NCBI GenBank assembly: GCA_031272765.1
Contig: JAISTD010000117.1
Coordinates: 1-37,323, forward strand
DNA length: 37,323 nt
Source of the DNA: Candidatus Methanovirga australis
GTDB taxonomy: Archaea > Methanobacteriota > Methanobacteria > Methanobacteriales > Methanobacteriaceae
Direction of reading: 5' to 3'
Made by a program: the position numbers and the translations under genes. The notes below the pieces were generated by a model that worked only from the letters and a program-made list of their open reading frames with translations, had not been told where the DNA came from and made no database searches. Below, piece after piece: positions 10,328 through 28,961 of this stretch; within the stretch, counting starts at the first letter, position 1, and each line of letters opens with the position of its first letter.

Positions 10328-11911
10328 TTATTTTTTCTTAGTTAAATTTTGACTAAATTTACATTTAACTTCCTTATCAGCAAAAGCAACACCTAAAAAA
10401 CTCACATCATACTTCAAATACTTCTCATAATACTTCTTATCTTTAATCTGACCCAAAGCCTCATCTACCAAAACATCAATCTTATCTTCATCTCCACTAA
10501 ATTTAATTTCAATTATAAAAGCCTCATCATCAATAATCAAAACAGCATCCATACGACCTTTATCTGTACTTACTTCACCATCAATCTCAAAACCCAACAA
10601 ATTCAACCACACAAGAAAAATCGTATGATAATACTTCTCCTCATCAACATGCAAATGATAAGGCACATTAGCAATCATCTCACGAAGATTATCATCTAAA
10701 CTCCCACCATCCTTATTCAAAAAATTCCTTCTCATCCTATTCCTTAAACTACTAATATCATCCAATGGATAATTAACACACAAATTTAACAAATATTTAA
10801 CTAAAGAACTTTTCACTTCTTTATTCGGAATAGTTAAAATATAATTTGGTTCTAATTCAACAATTTCTTTCTCACCTATTGTTAAATAACCAGATTGAAA
10901 CATTAACGGAACAATCGGAATATTATCAGGATCATAACTATCAGATATCTCAGAACCCGCCTCTACTTTATTAAGAACTTTATTTAAGTCTGTTTTTATT
11001 TTTAATAATTCAAGAAGAAATGTTGGTGTTCCAGTCTTAAACCAATAATTACTAAATTCATTTTTTCTAAATAACGATAAAGTAGACTGAGGATTATAAA
11101 CAAAATTCCTACCATCCCAACTATAACCATTATACCACTCTTTAATACCTATTAAAAGTTCATTCATACTAATATTAACTTCTTTAGCAAGATTATTCAT
11201 ATAAGGTTTAAAATAATATTCTAATTCACTCTGAGTATAACCACAAATAGTCGAAAATTCTTTATCAATCGTTAAATCATCAGGACTATTCAATCCAGAA
11301 AAGATTGATGTTCCAACGAACTTAGAAACACCAGTTATGAATACAAACCTTAGGTTATCATCTTGACTTTTTAAAATTTGGTAAAAATCATGTAATATCT
11401 CTTTCATATCATCACGAACATCAGGATAAGAAACATTATCCAAAATAGGCTTATCATACTCATCAACAAGAACAACAACCTTACCATATTTACTAACTAA
11501 CTCTTCAATCAACTCTCCAAACTTATCATCATAATCATCATACTCTAAACCTATACCATGCTCCTTAGCTATTTTAGTTAAAAAAATACTTAAAGAATTC
11601 TTTAATTTCTCACCAGACCTATGAGTCCTCCCACCCAAATCAATTCTAATAACAGGATATGATTCACTCCAATCCCACTTATCATAAATATACAAATCCT
11701 CAAATAATTCTTCATTCCCTAAAAACAAGTTTTCAAGAGTACTAACAAGCAACGATTTACCAAATCTTCTTGGACGAGATAAGAAATATGACTTCCCAGA
11801 ATTAATAAGTTCCAACATTTCCTTAGTTTTATCCACATAAAGATAATTATTGGTTCTCAAATCTTCAAAAGATTGTATACTAAGTGGCAACTTTTGTAAC
11901 TTATCCCCCAT
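10328..11911 (-). CDS. AAA-ATPase-like / PD-(D/E)XK nuclease-superfamily protein (DUF1703 type), second copy
   Basis: This is a full-length paralogue (527 residues from the ATG) of the gene at 603. It has the P-loop variant SRPRRFGKS at residues 45-53, Walker B VVVLVDEYD near 145-155, and a C-terminal nuclease-like core with D in KGRMDAV and the E-x-K of IIEIKF. I chose the ATG at 11911 over the TTG at 11914, because the ATG overlaps the stop of an upstream relic as TGATG, a coupling arrangement. The last third of the gene contains a 110-bp segment (10381-10490) repeated identically at 11961-12070, so it once had a tandem twin. Codon use is G-rich on the coding strand like most genes here. 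Confidence 0.85.
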   Translation of the reverse strand: MGDKLQKLPLSIQSFEDLRTNNYLYVDKTKEMLELINSGKSYFLSRPRRFGKSLLVSTLENLFLGNEELFEDLYIYDKWDWSESYPVIRIDLGGRTHRSGEKLKNSLSIFLTKIAKEHGIGLEYDDYDDKFGELIEELVSKYGKVVVLVDEYDKPILDNVSYPDVRDDMKEILHDFYQILKSQDDNLRFVFITGVSKFVGTSIFSGLNSPDDLTIDKEFSTICGYTQSELEYYFKPYMNNLAKEVNISMNELLIGIKEWYNGYSWDGRNFVYNPQSTLSLFRKNEFSNYWFKTGTPTFLLELLKIKTDLNKVLNKVEAGSEISDSYDPDNIPIVPLMFQSGYLTIGEKEIVELEPNYILTIPNKEVKSSLVKYLLNLCVNYPLDDISSLRNRMRRNFLNKDGGSLDDNLREMIANVPYHLHVDEEKYYHTIFLVWLNLLGFEIDGEVSTDKGRMDAVLIIDDEAFIIEIKFSGDEDKIDVLVDEALGQIKDKKYYEKYLKYDVSFLGVAFADKEVKCKFSQNLTKKK

Positions 11912-12070
11912 CAAAATTCCCCTTTTATTTCACTAAATTTACACTTAACTTCTCTATCAGCAAAAGCAACACCTAAAAAACTCACATCATACTTCAAATA
12001 CTTCTCATAATACTTCTTATCTTTAATCTGACCCAAAGCCTCATCTACCAAAACATCAATCTTATCTTCA
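11911..12070 (-). pseudogene. C-terminal scar of a third AAA/nuclease copy (duplicated segment)
   Basis: Bases 11932-12070 match 10352-10490 with three mismatches, and the part 11961-12070 is identical. The reading frame (DKIDVLVDEALGQIKDK to VAFADREVKCKFS) is kept and ends in a TGA that overlaps the ATG of the gene at 11911. Upstream of 12070 the homology stops and the frame closes at a TAA near 12112. The simplest history is a tandem duplication of the whole gene followed by loss of most of the upstream copy. Confidence 0.85.
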
Positions 12071-12111
12071 GCTCTACCATATTTTTCTTTATCTAAAGTA
12101 ATGATTTTTTG

Positions 12112-12668
12112 TTATAATCAAGTTTCATCTTCAAAGGAATTTATCTATTTTTCCATTAATTATTTTTGATATTTTTAAAATAAATATTTTTACATTAAAA
12201 TATTCAAACTACAGAGAGTTTCTATTAACCTAATCAAAAATATAACATATACTGATAAAAGTATTTATAAAATTTGAAACTCCCATTATTTAACTAAATA
12301 GTAGCAAATTAGTATATAAAAGCATCGATTATTTCACACCCTCCCCCATGGTTTTATATTTAAGTATTAAGAACCTTACATGTTATACTCTATAAATGAT
12401 AATACTATGAACAATATAATCCTTATCCCAAGCAAAATACAGGCAGATGTTAAAAAAAAACACCGCACATATAATTAAATAAATAATTGACTCCCAAAAA
12501 AAGCATCTACAAACAGAATAAAGCCTAAAAACGAAATATTTTGAATGATCAACTGTACATAATAAAAATTTTAACAATGGACTCCTTTTAGAGAAAAAAT
12601 ACTAAATCATGGAGTTTAAAAAATTAAAAGCACAACAATCAACTAAAAAATAATCCAACTACCTATTT
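12112..12668. other. AT-rich gap with a dispersed repeat carrying a TATA box
   Basis: No supported gene. It holds the dispersed repeat at 12211-12330. A minus-strand frame of 64 codons at 12383-12577 is rich in F, C and I and has no recognisable domain or ribosome binding site, so I do not call it. Confidence 0.5.
12211..12330 (+). repeat. Dispersed ~120-bp intergenic repeat, copy 1
   Basis: Shares with 23010-23125 the blocks cagagagtttctattaa, gaaactccca, gtatataaa and cgattatt in the same order and at nearly the same spacing. The agtttc and gaaact blocks form an inverted repeat (gagtttc/gaaactc). The gtatataaa block resembles an archaeal TATA box, so the element could carry a promoter reading rightward. 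What would be transcribed is unknown; the sequences after the two copies differ. Confidence 0.75.
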
Positions 12669-13049
12669 TTATCGAATTATTTTTATATCTTTAAAAATAT
12701 CAAAGTCTGGATCAAAACTAACAATTTCAGCTATTTCTAAATCTTTCATTAAAATATAATACAAATTGTCAAAAAAACCTATATTATTAGTTAAAGAAGT
12801 TATAAATGTTTTTTCATAATAGGTAGTATCATCAATTACTAAAAAATCATTTATCATACTATAATAAGCATGTTTAACATCATCATCTGATTGTTTTAGT
12901 TTTCTAAGAACAGTTAATACTTCTGCAATTACCATGTGTGAAATTACTAATTTTTCTGTTTCTATAGTCTTAAATATTTTATTAGACTTTTCATGACTTT
13001 TATTTTTAAAAAATAAACTAATTAAGAAGCTAGGTTCTAAAAAAATCAT
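12669..13049 (-). CDS. PIN-domain toxin of a VapBC-type pair (altered active site)
   Basis: The 126-residue protein has the length and layout of a VapC RNase toxin, which cleaves tRNA or rRNA when freed from its antitoxin. PIN acidic positions are E43 (IAEVLTVL), D94 (FFDNLYY) and D113 (SFDPDFD). The first catalytic position, normally Asp in FLDTSF, is Glu here (E5 in MIFLEPSF), with Thr also replaced by Pro. Such a change may reduce or abolish metal-dependent cleavage. It starts four bases after the stop of the antitoxin gene, so the two are co-transcribed. Its paralogue at 13441 keeps the Asp. Confidence 0.78.
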   Translation of the reverse strand: MIFLEPSFLISLFFKNKSHEKSNKIFKTIETEKLVISHMVIAEVLTVLRKLKQSDDDVKHAYYSMINDFLVIDDTTYYEKTFITSLTNNIGFFDNLYYILMKDLEIAEIVSFDPDFDIFKDIKIIR

Positions 13050-13053
13050 ATAA

Positions 13054-13323
13054 TCATGCCTGATCTAAAAATATTTTTTTTCTTATATCCACAGGATCAA
13101 AGTCATCCTCACTTTTAAGTTTACCAATCATGTCTTTAATAGTGATTGTTTCATTACTTTCTAATTTTACAGAAGCATTAATTATTTTATCCTCTTTAGT
13201 TTCAGTCTCCATTATTAAATCTACTAATACTCCTGATTTGGATTTGCCTTTTCTTTTTGATAAGTTGTCTATCTGTTTAATAGCTTCAATAGGTAAAGTA
13301 TAGGTTGCTTTTTTAACATTCAT
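13054..13323 (-). CDS. Ribbon-helix-helix antitoxin partner of the PIN toxin (VapB-like)
   Basis: This 89-residue protein starts with MNVKKATYTLPIEAIKQID, a basic strand followed by helix, as in ribbon-helix-helix DNA-binding antitoxins, then KRKGKSKSGVLVDLI. The acidic C-terminal half would wrap the toxin. It lies directly upstream of the toxin gene with four bases between. A GGTG three to nine bases before the ATG acts as ribosome binding site, and a TATA-like attaaatataaa lies further upstream. Family assignment rests on size, charge pattern and partner, not on a search. Confidence 0.7.
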   Translation of the reverse strand: MNVKKATYTLPIEAIKQIDNLSKRKGKSKSGVLVDLIMETETKEDKIINASVKLESNETITIKDMIGKLKSEDDFDPVDIRKKIFLDQA

Positions 13324-13440
13324 TTTAACACCAATATAATTTTTTTATATTTAATTATATGGGAAGCCATATTATAAATGTTTTTGTCTTTGGGGTTTCC
13401 ATTTAGTTTTTGATTCTATCATATTATCACTATTTTTATT

Positions 13441-13833
13441 TTAATAAATTCTTTTAATATTTTTGTTTAAGTCAAAATGTTTATCAAATGTAGCTATTTC
13501 TTTTATTCCTAACTCTTCCATTATACTCATTATAAGGAAATCAAAGAAAGGCAGTCTTTTTTCCCATTCAATTGTTTTTCTTAAGGCATTATTATAAAAA
13601 TAATGGTCTTCAATAATAGTATAATCTTCAATTAATTTAGTATAAGTTTCTTCTATTTTATGTTTATCAATTTTTAATTTATTATTTAATAAATTAATAG
13701 TTTCAGCTATAATTATTCTGGATATTATTTTCTCTTCTTTCTTTATTTTTTCCATTAGCTCATTAGCTCTTGGGTGATCTTCTTCTTCGTTTATATAAAA
13801 AGAAACTAAAAAACTTGTATCTAAAAAAATCAT
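13441..13833 (-). CDS. PIN-domain toxin of a second VapBC-type pair
   Basis: This 130-residue PIN protein keeps all four acidic positions: D5 (MIFLDTSF), E44 (IAETINLL), D98 (PFFDFL) and D117 (ATFDKHFD). It is therefore expected to be an active Mg-dependent RNase toxin. Its ATG overlaps the stop of the antitoxin gene by one base (TAATG), which is usual for coupled toxin-antitoxin genes. The sequence just beyond its stop (about 13392-13440) resembles that after the toxin relic at 14386, showing that a copy of this module was duplicated. Confidence 0.85.
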   Translation of the reverse strand: MIFLDTSFLVSFYINEEEDHPRANELMEKIKKEEKIISRIIIAETINLLNNKLKIDKHKIEETYTKLIEDYTIIEDHYFYNNALRKTIEWEKRLPFFDFLIMSIMEELGIKEIATFDKHFDLNKNIKRIY

Positions 13834-14126
13834 TATCCCCCTCTTCTCATTTCTTTAACCAATTTTACCGCATCAAAAGGTTCAACTCCTTTAATGAAAC
13901 CAGAACTTTTCATAATTCTATCTGGATCTGGATTATAAGTTGTTTTATTAGCTATTAAATAATCAGGAATTTTATTTTTATCTTTTTCTGCTTCTAAACC
14001 TTTTCTTAGATACTCATTTATTATTTCAGTTTGTGTTGAATTTTTATTTAATGCAACTACTTTAATAGTTTTAATAACATCCTTATCAAGATTTAAAGTA
14101 GTTCTTAGCCTATTTTTAGTTTTCAT
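13833..14126 (-). CDS. Ribbon-helix-helix antitoxin of the second pair (VapB-like)
   Basis: The 97-residue protein begins with the basic segment MKTKNRLRTTLNLDKDVIKT, typical of a ribbon-helix-helix strand and first helix, followed by STQTEIINEYLRKGLEAE as the second helix. The C-terminal part would bind the PIN toxin. GGCGAT seven bases before the ATG is a good match to the ribosome binding site. It overlaps the toxin gene by one base. Its sequence is different from the antitoxin at 13054, so the two pairs are probably not cross-neutralising; this is inference. Confidence 0.75.
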   Translation of the reverse strand: MKTKNRLRTTLNLDKDVIKTIKVVALNKNSTQTEIINEYLRKGLEAEKDKNKIPDYLIANKTTYNPDPDRIMKSSGFIKGVEPFDAVKLVKEMRRGG

Positions 14127-18172: not shown

Positions 18173-18772
18173 ATGGGCGAAAGTAAAAATGAAGAACTTT
18201 CCAAACAGGGTAATTTAAAAAGAATTTATGTGGGTACACAGACATTTGAGTTTTTAAGAGAAAATGATTATCTATATGTTGATAAAACAAAAGAAATTCA
18301 TAAATTAATACACAGTGAAAAAATAGTTTTTCTTTCTCGTCCAAGAAGATTTGGCAAATCATTATTAGTCAGCACCTTTAAAAACCTTTTTTCTGGGAAC
18401 AAAAAATTGTTTGAAGGTCTTTACATTTATGATCATTGGAATTGGGATAAATCATATCCAGTAATACATTAGATATGAGTAAGGTTTCAAATAAAACTAA
18501 TGAATTATTGGAATTAACTCTTTTGGATTATATTAATGAATTTGCTAAGGATTTTGCCATAGAATTAGATGAAAATTTACCTGTAGATTATAATTTTCCT
18601 GTTTTAATTAAAAAAATGTATGATTCATGAGAAACAGTATTATAAGCTTTATATGAATAAGAAGTTTGTTGTTATTTTGCTTGCTTTAGCATTTAAGGAT
18701 GTTCGAATTAATGAAAAAGATGTTTTAACTGAAATAAAATGCAAAATAGAGAAGATCAATGCTGAAAAATAG
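18173..18772 (+). pseudogene. Decayed AAA-ATPase/DUF1703 gene
   Basis: The first frame encodes 99 residues of a DUF1703-type protein with YLYVDKTKEI and the P-loop SRPRRFGKSLLVST, but closes at 18470-18472 after SYPVIH because one base has been lost. The next frame continues the family sequence (LDMSKVSNKTNELLELTLL to PVLIKKMYDS). Then the text jumps to HEKQYYKLYMNKKFVVILLA and ends at a TAG at 18770-18772, which is the family's C-terminus. About 900 bases of the middle and the nuclease core have been deleted. This is the fourth AAA/nuclease locus in the window. Confidence 0.85.
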
Positions 18773-22632: not shown

Positions 22633-23009
22633 TCCTCAATATGTGGATACACAATAATCACTCCTTACATAAAAACCATAATGATAGAGAATTAATAATT
22701 ATAAATACATAAAAAAAATATTCTATCAAATATTAACATATTATCAAGAACAAACTCATATTTAAAGATATATATATAATAAACAGTGGATATACATAGC
22801 CAAGATGCAGCTATTACTTTTTTATCCATAATATCCCCCATAAAGTGAATTATATTACAATATAAAACTCAATGCTGTCAATAAGTCACCTTCTAATTAA
22901 AAATTCATTTATATAAAAAAACACAAGAAATTTATTGAAAGTAAAAATCATTAACATATTTTTCATAATATAAATGTATTGAATGATAATTACTTTACTT
23001 GAGTTCTTC

Positions 23010-23125
23010 AGAGAGTTTCTATTAAGCTATCAAAAATCACAATATTTTGATAAAGATCTTATAAATATTGAAACTCCCATAACTAACCTAATTTAGTAGT
23101 AGTATATAAAGGTGTCGATTATTGA
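23010..23125 (+). repeat. Dispersed ~120-bp intergenic repeat, copy 2
   Basis: Matches 12211-12330 in block order: cagagagtttctattaa, atcaaaaat, gaaactccca, gtatataaa, cgattatt. The similarity stops after the TATA-like block and its short downstream sequence. Confidence 0.75.
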
Positions 23126-23208
23126 AGGAGGTTGTAAAGTTTTGTGGAGTTTTTCTTTATATTGCTTCATTTTCCATGAATAGAGTTAAATATTCTAATA
23201 ACCCTTCA

Positions 23209-28382: not shown

Positions 28383-28776
28383 ACTATAACCCCATTAACA
28401 TTCTGTTTAATTTTGTCTATTAAAAAATAATACTCCATAATCCACTTAATTATACAGTGATAAATAAATATAAACATTATACGGCCCATAAATTACATAA
28501 AATTCATTGTATAATCAATTAGCAAGTTGTAAAGTAGTATAATACCATAAAACACACAGCACAATATTATATTTAAGTATAGTCCAATTAAATAAGCAAA
28601 TATTAGTTAGAAATAAATTAAAATTATTTTTGCAAAATACAATTAATTTTAAATGATACAAATTATATAAATTTTATAATATTATAAGTTATAACTTTTT
28701 ATATTAATAAACTTTACCTTAACAGTTTTTTATCTTAAACATTTTTTTATATAATTTAGAAGAAACTTTTAACAAG

Positions 28777-28961
28777 AATTTCATTCCCTAAATTCTTCAT
28801 GCCTTCGAAACCTATTAACTTGTTTAATATATGCCAAAGTGCAAATTCATTCCCTAAATTCCTCATGCCTTCGGAACAACAGAAATTTCATTCCCTAAAT
28901 TTCTCGCTTTGTTCGAAACAACGAGAATTTCATTCCCTAAGTTCCTCATGTCTTCGGAACC
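28777..28961. repeat. Four degenerate copies of a 36-bp repeat
   Basis: The core attccctaaattcctcatg, then ccttcggaac, appears at 28777-28812, 28843-28877, 28884-28922 and 28926-28961. Spacers are 30, about 6 and about 3 bases, and each copy has changes. The unit has imperfect inverted symmetry (ttcc...ggaa). It lies between serS and the unknown gene at 27741. Confidence 0.8.

Follow-up and report, generated by a model that had tools for sequence, protein, structure and literature searches.

The window analyzed here comprises 37,323 nucleotides of the Candidatus Methanovirga australis assembly GCA_031272765.1 (contig JAISTD010000117.1; genome G000, 2.44 Mb in 236 contigs). Its minus strand carries an intact gene for a 527-amino acid protein directly preceded by a short open frame that resembles the tail of the same protein family, and the window contains a second intact family gene and a decayed copy elsewhere (Table 1). 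The 527-amino acid protein belongs to the DUF1703 family, which combines AAA-ATPase_like and PDDEXK_9 domains, as seen in matches of its N-terminal part to PF09820 (E 2.2e-60; 204.3 bits, cut-off 26.1) and of its C-terminal part to PF08011 (E 2.5e-15; 56.7 bits, cut-off 25.5). A candidate Walker A motif (RPRRFGKS at position 46) and putative PD-(D/E)XK residues (D454, E468 and K470) were read by eye from the translation. The ORF list places the start of this gene one codon earlier, at a TTG.

Table 1. Coordinates of the family copies, repeat tracts and upstream element in the window.
Feature	Position	Strand	Basis
Second intact family gene, 545 aa	603..2240	+	Family search
Intact AAA-ATPase_like + PDDEXK_9 (DUF1703-type) gene, 527 aa	10328..11911	-	Domain matches, translation; ATG at 11911
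116-nt tract, copy in the gene tail (from codon 474)	10375..10490	-	Exact repeat, translation
Tail relic, most likely of a second family member	11911..12090	-	Profile positions 473-526, open frame, TGA overlapping the gene's ATG
116-nt tract, copy in the relic	11955..12070	-	Exact repeat
Dispersed promoter-like element (TATA-like TTTATATAC and predicted hairpin)	12212..12350	-	At least 58 matches in G000, this one included
Decayed family copy, head (profile 3-142) then tail (492-526), with internal deletion	18203..18760	+	Profile

The family is abundant in this genome, with 34 matches to PF09820 and 27 to PF08011, and the 527-amino acid protein used as query matched 12 of 60 genomes, G000 among them. 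Two relatives, G006 and G019, carry the same expansion. NTPase-nucleases of this kind have been linked to Crinkler effectors. A table in PMC10952713 gives PF09820 for RdrA, PARIS1 and Old-tin; PADLOC models compared with two proteins returned no family at E 0.01, NCBIfam yielded no match for the 527-amino acid protein, and none of the solved structures matched it at E 0.01.

The tail relic and its repeat

The frame of the relic is open on the minus strand from position 12111 down to a TGA at 11913-11911, spanning 66 codons that include no ATG, three TTG and one GTG. Approximately 54 of these codons match the family profile (score 60), with the family signal starting at about position 12090, and a scan of 12091-12669 for more of an upstream family gene detected nothing above noise. 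A preliminary description of this DNA had reported that 10381-10490 and 11961-12070 are identical, that a wider match of 139 bp carries three changes, and that the relic keeps its frame and overlaps the start of the intact gene as TGATG. All three statements were borne out: the full exact run extends to 116 nt, a recount of 10352-10490 against 11932-12070 gave 3 mismatches, and the relic TGA overlaps the ATG at 11911-11909. The longest direct repeat listed for the window by the repeat search is a 157-nt pair with 95% identity. The exact tract begins beyond the nuclease-center residues read by eye, and it is therefore unlikely that the relic is a nuclease on its own.

The distribution of differences between relic and gene is uneven. 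None of the 116 positions of the tract differs, compared to 5 of the 28 that adjoin it on the stop side (Fisher p 2e-4). On the other (5') side 5 of 15 positions differ, a short and weaker comparison, and so little sequence aligns there that its homology is uncertain. Identity thus drops at both ends of the patch, with weaker evidence at the 5' end. These edges bear on the possibility that the whole gene was recently duplicated in tandem and most of the upstream copy then lost, without any conversion. Such a history would account for the high identity, and whole tandems that are 91.8% (L200) and 93.9% (L201) identical exist in a related genome (G019); a confinement of identity to one contiguous stretch, C-termini that differ and the mosaic composition of the gene described below nonetheless make it quite improbable.

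The sequence beyond the tract points to a different paralogue as the source of the relic. Over the 45 nt past the tract, the relic agrees with the C234 paralogue at 36 of 45 positions and with C148, C166 and G002:C38 at 34 of 45, compared to 27 of 45 for the gene downstream of it. Likewise, the predicted relic end (SEIKGEF-stop) resembles those of C234 (SELNDEF-stop) and G002:C38 (KELDEEF-stop), and is unlike that of the gene (SQNLTKKK-stop). Most likely, then, the relic is what remains of another paralogue, distinct from the gene and arranged head to tail with it. An alternative origin, in which the last 160 nt or so of the gene were copied just upstream by template switching, at a site that had never held a complete second gene, would fit the absence of anything recognizable of an upstream gene past the tail, the zero spacer to the gene start and a similar tail-only relic at L237 (see below). 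It is at odds with the closer fit of the last 45 nt to C234 than to the gene, and with an identity that is complete within the tract and lost at either end of it, for which a single copying event would be insufficient without later conversion; we consider it unlikely.

Third sequences support the composite nature of the intact gene. Between gene positions 1057 and 1421, 31 informative sites are of the C148/C166/C97 type and 9 of the C145/C234 type, whereas within the tract the counts are 6 and 14, respectively, and past the tract 3 and 0 (152 informative positions; Fisher p 6e-4, for clades picked after seeing the paralogue comparison). A more extreme value for the mosaic (Fisher 2e-15) was set aside, as it counts flank columns without clear homology. 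The gene is also mixed elsewhere, being identical to G002:C3 at 79 of 84 positions within 397-528. In a GENECONV-like permutation with six sequences, the gene gave p values of 0.003-0.03 against four of the other sequences and 0.12 against the one remaining; since none of these values survives correction for 15 pairs, they lend weak support.

On this sequence evidence, gene conversion is the best reading of the 116-nt identity, which would then not measure the age of a whole-gene duplication: the match is unbroken within the tract and ceases at each of its ends, and the last codons of the relic fit another paralogue better than the gene. Since the tract resembles C145/C234-type paralogues, conversion would have run from the lineage of the relic to the gene. 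The preliminary description had attributed the identity to either recent duplication or gene conversion; the bounded patch, the mosaic and the patches in other tandems (see below) favor the second of these, and the bounds of the patch together with the last codons of the relic, which resemble those of a different paralogue, disfavor duplication of the whole gene.

Head-to-tail pairs and relics in related genomes

We surveyed 34 loci of G000 (L149-L182) and 100 loci from eight relatives (L183-L282), among which L183-L190 are synteny sites; the family loci were taken from G001, G002, G004, G006, G019 and G027 (six relatives), and none from G003, G005 or G011. The survey consists of stretches fetched around copies, drawn from the matches listed, and its counts are therefore lower bounds. 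A family profile built from 18 G000 sequences and applied with a threshold of 18 bits yielded 183 pieces, merged into 154 copies in seven genomes, 118 of them near-complete. Among the merged copies, family neighbors within 1200 nt lie on the same strand in 16 cases and on opposite strands in 2 (binomial p 0.0013), where the same-strand cases take in fragments, the window itself and an orthologous pair that is counted twice (L164/L278).

An intact tandem is present in G000 itself (L164), and more occur in relatives. The L164 partners are 46-74% identical in the first 1100 columns and 84-95% identical in the last 550, with an exact run of 71 nt, and the longest exact runs reach 182 nt at L197, 188 nt at L199 and 170 nt at L200. 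The L201 tandem is evenly alike (84-97%), and no exact run above 55 nt was found at L198, L202, L203 and L217, among nine intact or near-intact pairs. Exact patches (71-188 nt) are therefore often, not always, seen in intact head-to-tail pairs elsewhere. Among intact single-frame tandem pairs, 4 of 8 have an exact run of at least 70 nt, compared to 16 of the 883 remaining pairs within genomes (Fisher 1.2e-5, for pairs that are non-independent), with L197 falling outside the eight because one partner is frameshifted; such patches are accordingly enriched between neighbors yet not limited to them. The matched parts of intact tandems are separated by 113-1118 nt, in contrast to the zero spacer between relic and gene in the window.

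The anatomy of a relic followed by a gene recurs once in another genome. At L237 (G027), a tail relic is identical at 99 of 105 positions to the tail of the following gene and ends about 45 nt before it; this relic is equally close to the L235 paralogue (94.6% over 92 nt) and to its own neighbor (94.3% over 106 nt). Overall, same-strand family sequence was found in 10 of 112 upstream flanks of up to 700 nt each. In a further arrangement, seen at C148 (G000) and C166 (G002), the stop of a family gene is followed with zero spacer by the ATG plus some 110 nt from a second family head; these two sequences are about 91% alike over 914 nt, and the C148 gene carries an interruption of its own. Such zero-spacer junctions may have their origin in microhomology between stop and leader. 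The leader of L152 contains AAAAGGGGA, and the relic end IKGEF-stop could partly be the leader of the gene itself, in which case the TGATG overlap would be fortuitous.

These recurrences also bear on the quality of the assembly. A short-read assembler may have passed the 116-nt repeat twice and thereby joined stretches that are not adjacent: assembly k-mers have lengths comparable to that of the repeat, the genome is divided into 236 contigs and a number of family members reach contig ends. Relic and gene nonetheless join coherently, another assembly (L237) shows this anatomy too and two show mirror-image junctions, and we regard an artifact as very improbable.

Taken together, these observations suggest a history in three steps, which we consider probable. 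Two diverged AAA-ATPase/nuclease paralogues would have lain side by side in head-to-tail orientation; gene conversion would then have copied a stretch of 116 nt or more from the 3' end of one to that of the other; and the upstream gene would finally have lost its 5' part, leaving its last 55-60 codons with a stop that overlaps the start of the survivor. We infer both the former presence of a full upstream gene at the locus and the order of these events. Points against this history are the missing remainder of the upstream gene, the wider spacing of intact tandems, the tandems that lack long exact runs, the equal closeness of the L237 relic to L235, the interruption of the C148 gene, the possible leader origin of IKGEF-stop, and the lack of an uncollapsed allele in the relatives compared (see below). 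The proposal of the preliminary description that the locus is a collapsed tandem thus gains support by analogy, from the excess of same-strand neighbors (16 versus 2), the L164 tandem and the L237 relic. Its further suggestion, that such events would allow expansion and contraction of the locus, may be regarded as plausible.

The locus in relatives and the upstream element

The closest relative, G002, shares long blocks with the window at 87-95% DNA identity. In this genome HcgF adjoins leuA, the matched blocks lying about 115 nt apart, and the block from PdxS to FTR lies on a separate contig. No family member was present in the synteny stretches around PdxS or HcgF (L183-L190, from G001, G002, G003, G005, G006 and G019, the PdxS sites of G027 being excluded), and G004 gave no match to PdxS or HcgF. 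The DNA flanking the pair was also searched in 40 genomes, G000 included, matching in the flank with the PIN pair G002:C145 (96%) and G013 (85%) and in the acetyltransferase region G004 (82%) and G001 (79%). Among seven regions fetched for these flank matches, only G001:C85 has a family gene nearby, in a different arrangement. The uncollapsed tandem that the preliminary description had proposed to look for in relatives was thus seen neither in the 8 synteny stretches nor in the seven regions fetched from the flank search of 40 genomes. The stretch at 8.6-15.1 kb is accordingly variable.

The decayed copy at 18203-18760 is without counterpart at that place in G002, where about 97 nt separate the shared blocks, compared to about 839 nt in the window; similar TTTTAATAGCTA words flank this copy on both sides. 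At 12669-14126 on the minus strand lie two PIN-domain genes, each with a small upstream partner, which are likely toxin-antitoxin pairs. Contigs matching the first PIN pair also carry a family gene no more than about 3.2 kb away in G001:C85, G002:C83, G004:C36, G000:C172 and G019:C243, by coordinates compared by eye and without a statistic. Four imperfect 42-nt direct repeats, with spacings of 66, 41 and 42 nt, occupy 28771-28961.

Upstream of the relic, about 300 nt before the gene, the promoter-like element points at relic and gene. This element is dispersed, with at least 58 matches in G000, at least 54 in G002 and none in 19 other genomes (150 candidates scored per genome), so that, of 21 genomes, those of the two closest species have it. 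A second copy in the window lies at 23009-23140 on the minus strand. In a scan of 8 sources, no Rfam family matched the element at gathering score, and 0 of 19 hairpin pairs had changes on both sides, so that covariation lends the predicted hairpin no support. Among 29 inspected copies in G000, 23 have a same-strand ORF start within 400 nt downstream, against 3 with an ORF start on the opposite side; for the copy next to the relic, the downstream ORF is the family gene itself. The element looks like a promoter or leader module that has spread, and the surviving gene would now be read from the copy upstream of the relic.

Relation to known systems and implications

Parts of a study of the Cardinium strain cCpun (Siozios et al., PMC6387759) describe a DUF1703 expansion of 25 diverged paralogues with PF09820 and PF08011, in which intragenic recombination is frequent, partial copies occur and the role is unknown. 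As far as those parts go, the copies analyzed here share with the Cardinium paralogues the two-domain architecture, the recombination between paralogues and the partial copies, and they differ in residing in an archaeal genome, in the enrichment of exact patches between head-to-tail neighbors and in the reduction of one partner to a relic. The words "tandem" and "gene conversion" are absent from the main text of that paper, and the literature searched, including parts of PMC13135261 and PMC11287868, does not describe the expansion in termite methanogens. Methanobrevibacter curvatus and M. filiformis were isolated from termite hindgut, according to a passage in PMC4919416, and a termite habitat may apply to G000 as well.

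Many of the best 80 of 415 protein relatives in genome_contigs are records of Tannerella, Symbiothrix, Endomicrobiellum and Planctomycetaceae, with 44-52% identity. These bacterial relatives hint at exchange between domains within one habitat.

Gene conversion between tandem paralogues generates short exact patches between neighbors that are otherwise diverged, and the pair in the window conforms to this general pattern except that one partner is reduced to a tail. In silent cassette systems such as pilE/pilS and vlsE, a partial copy can donate sequence to an intact gene. The window is like these in that a partial copy adjoins an intact gene and could donate sequence to it, and unlike them in having a single partial copy, with no sign of repeated switching or surface exposure. 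We find it very doubtful that the tail has been kept as a donor, as a minimal silent cassette that renews the C-terminus of the nuclease, with the gene possibly looping out between the repeats; if it were, the C-termini of family nucleases would be swapped between head-to-tail neighbors. The data instead support ordinary tandem duplication, conversion and decay as the history of the window pair.

The locus would thus exemplify how a large ATPase-nuclease family may diversify in methanogens, through head-to-tail pairs that form, exchange patches and collapse. It also serves as a warning that repeat identity in such families may measure conversion rather than the age of a duplication. Furthermore, the position of the relic suggests that a surviving gene could come to lie behind a different, dispersed promoter-like element.
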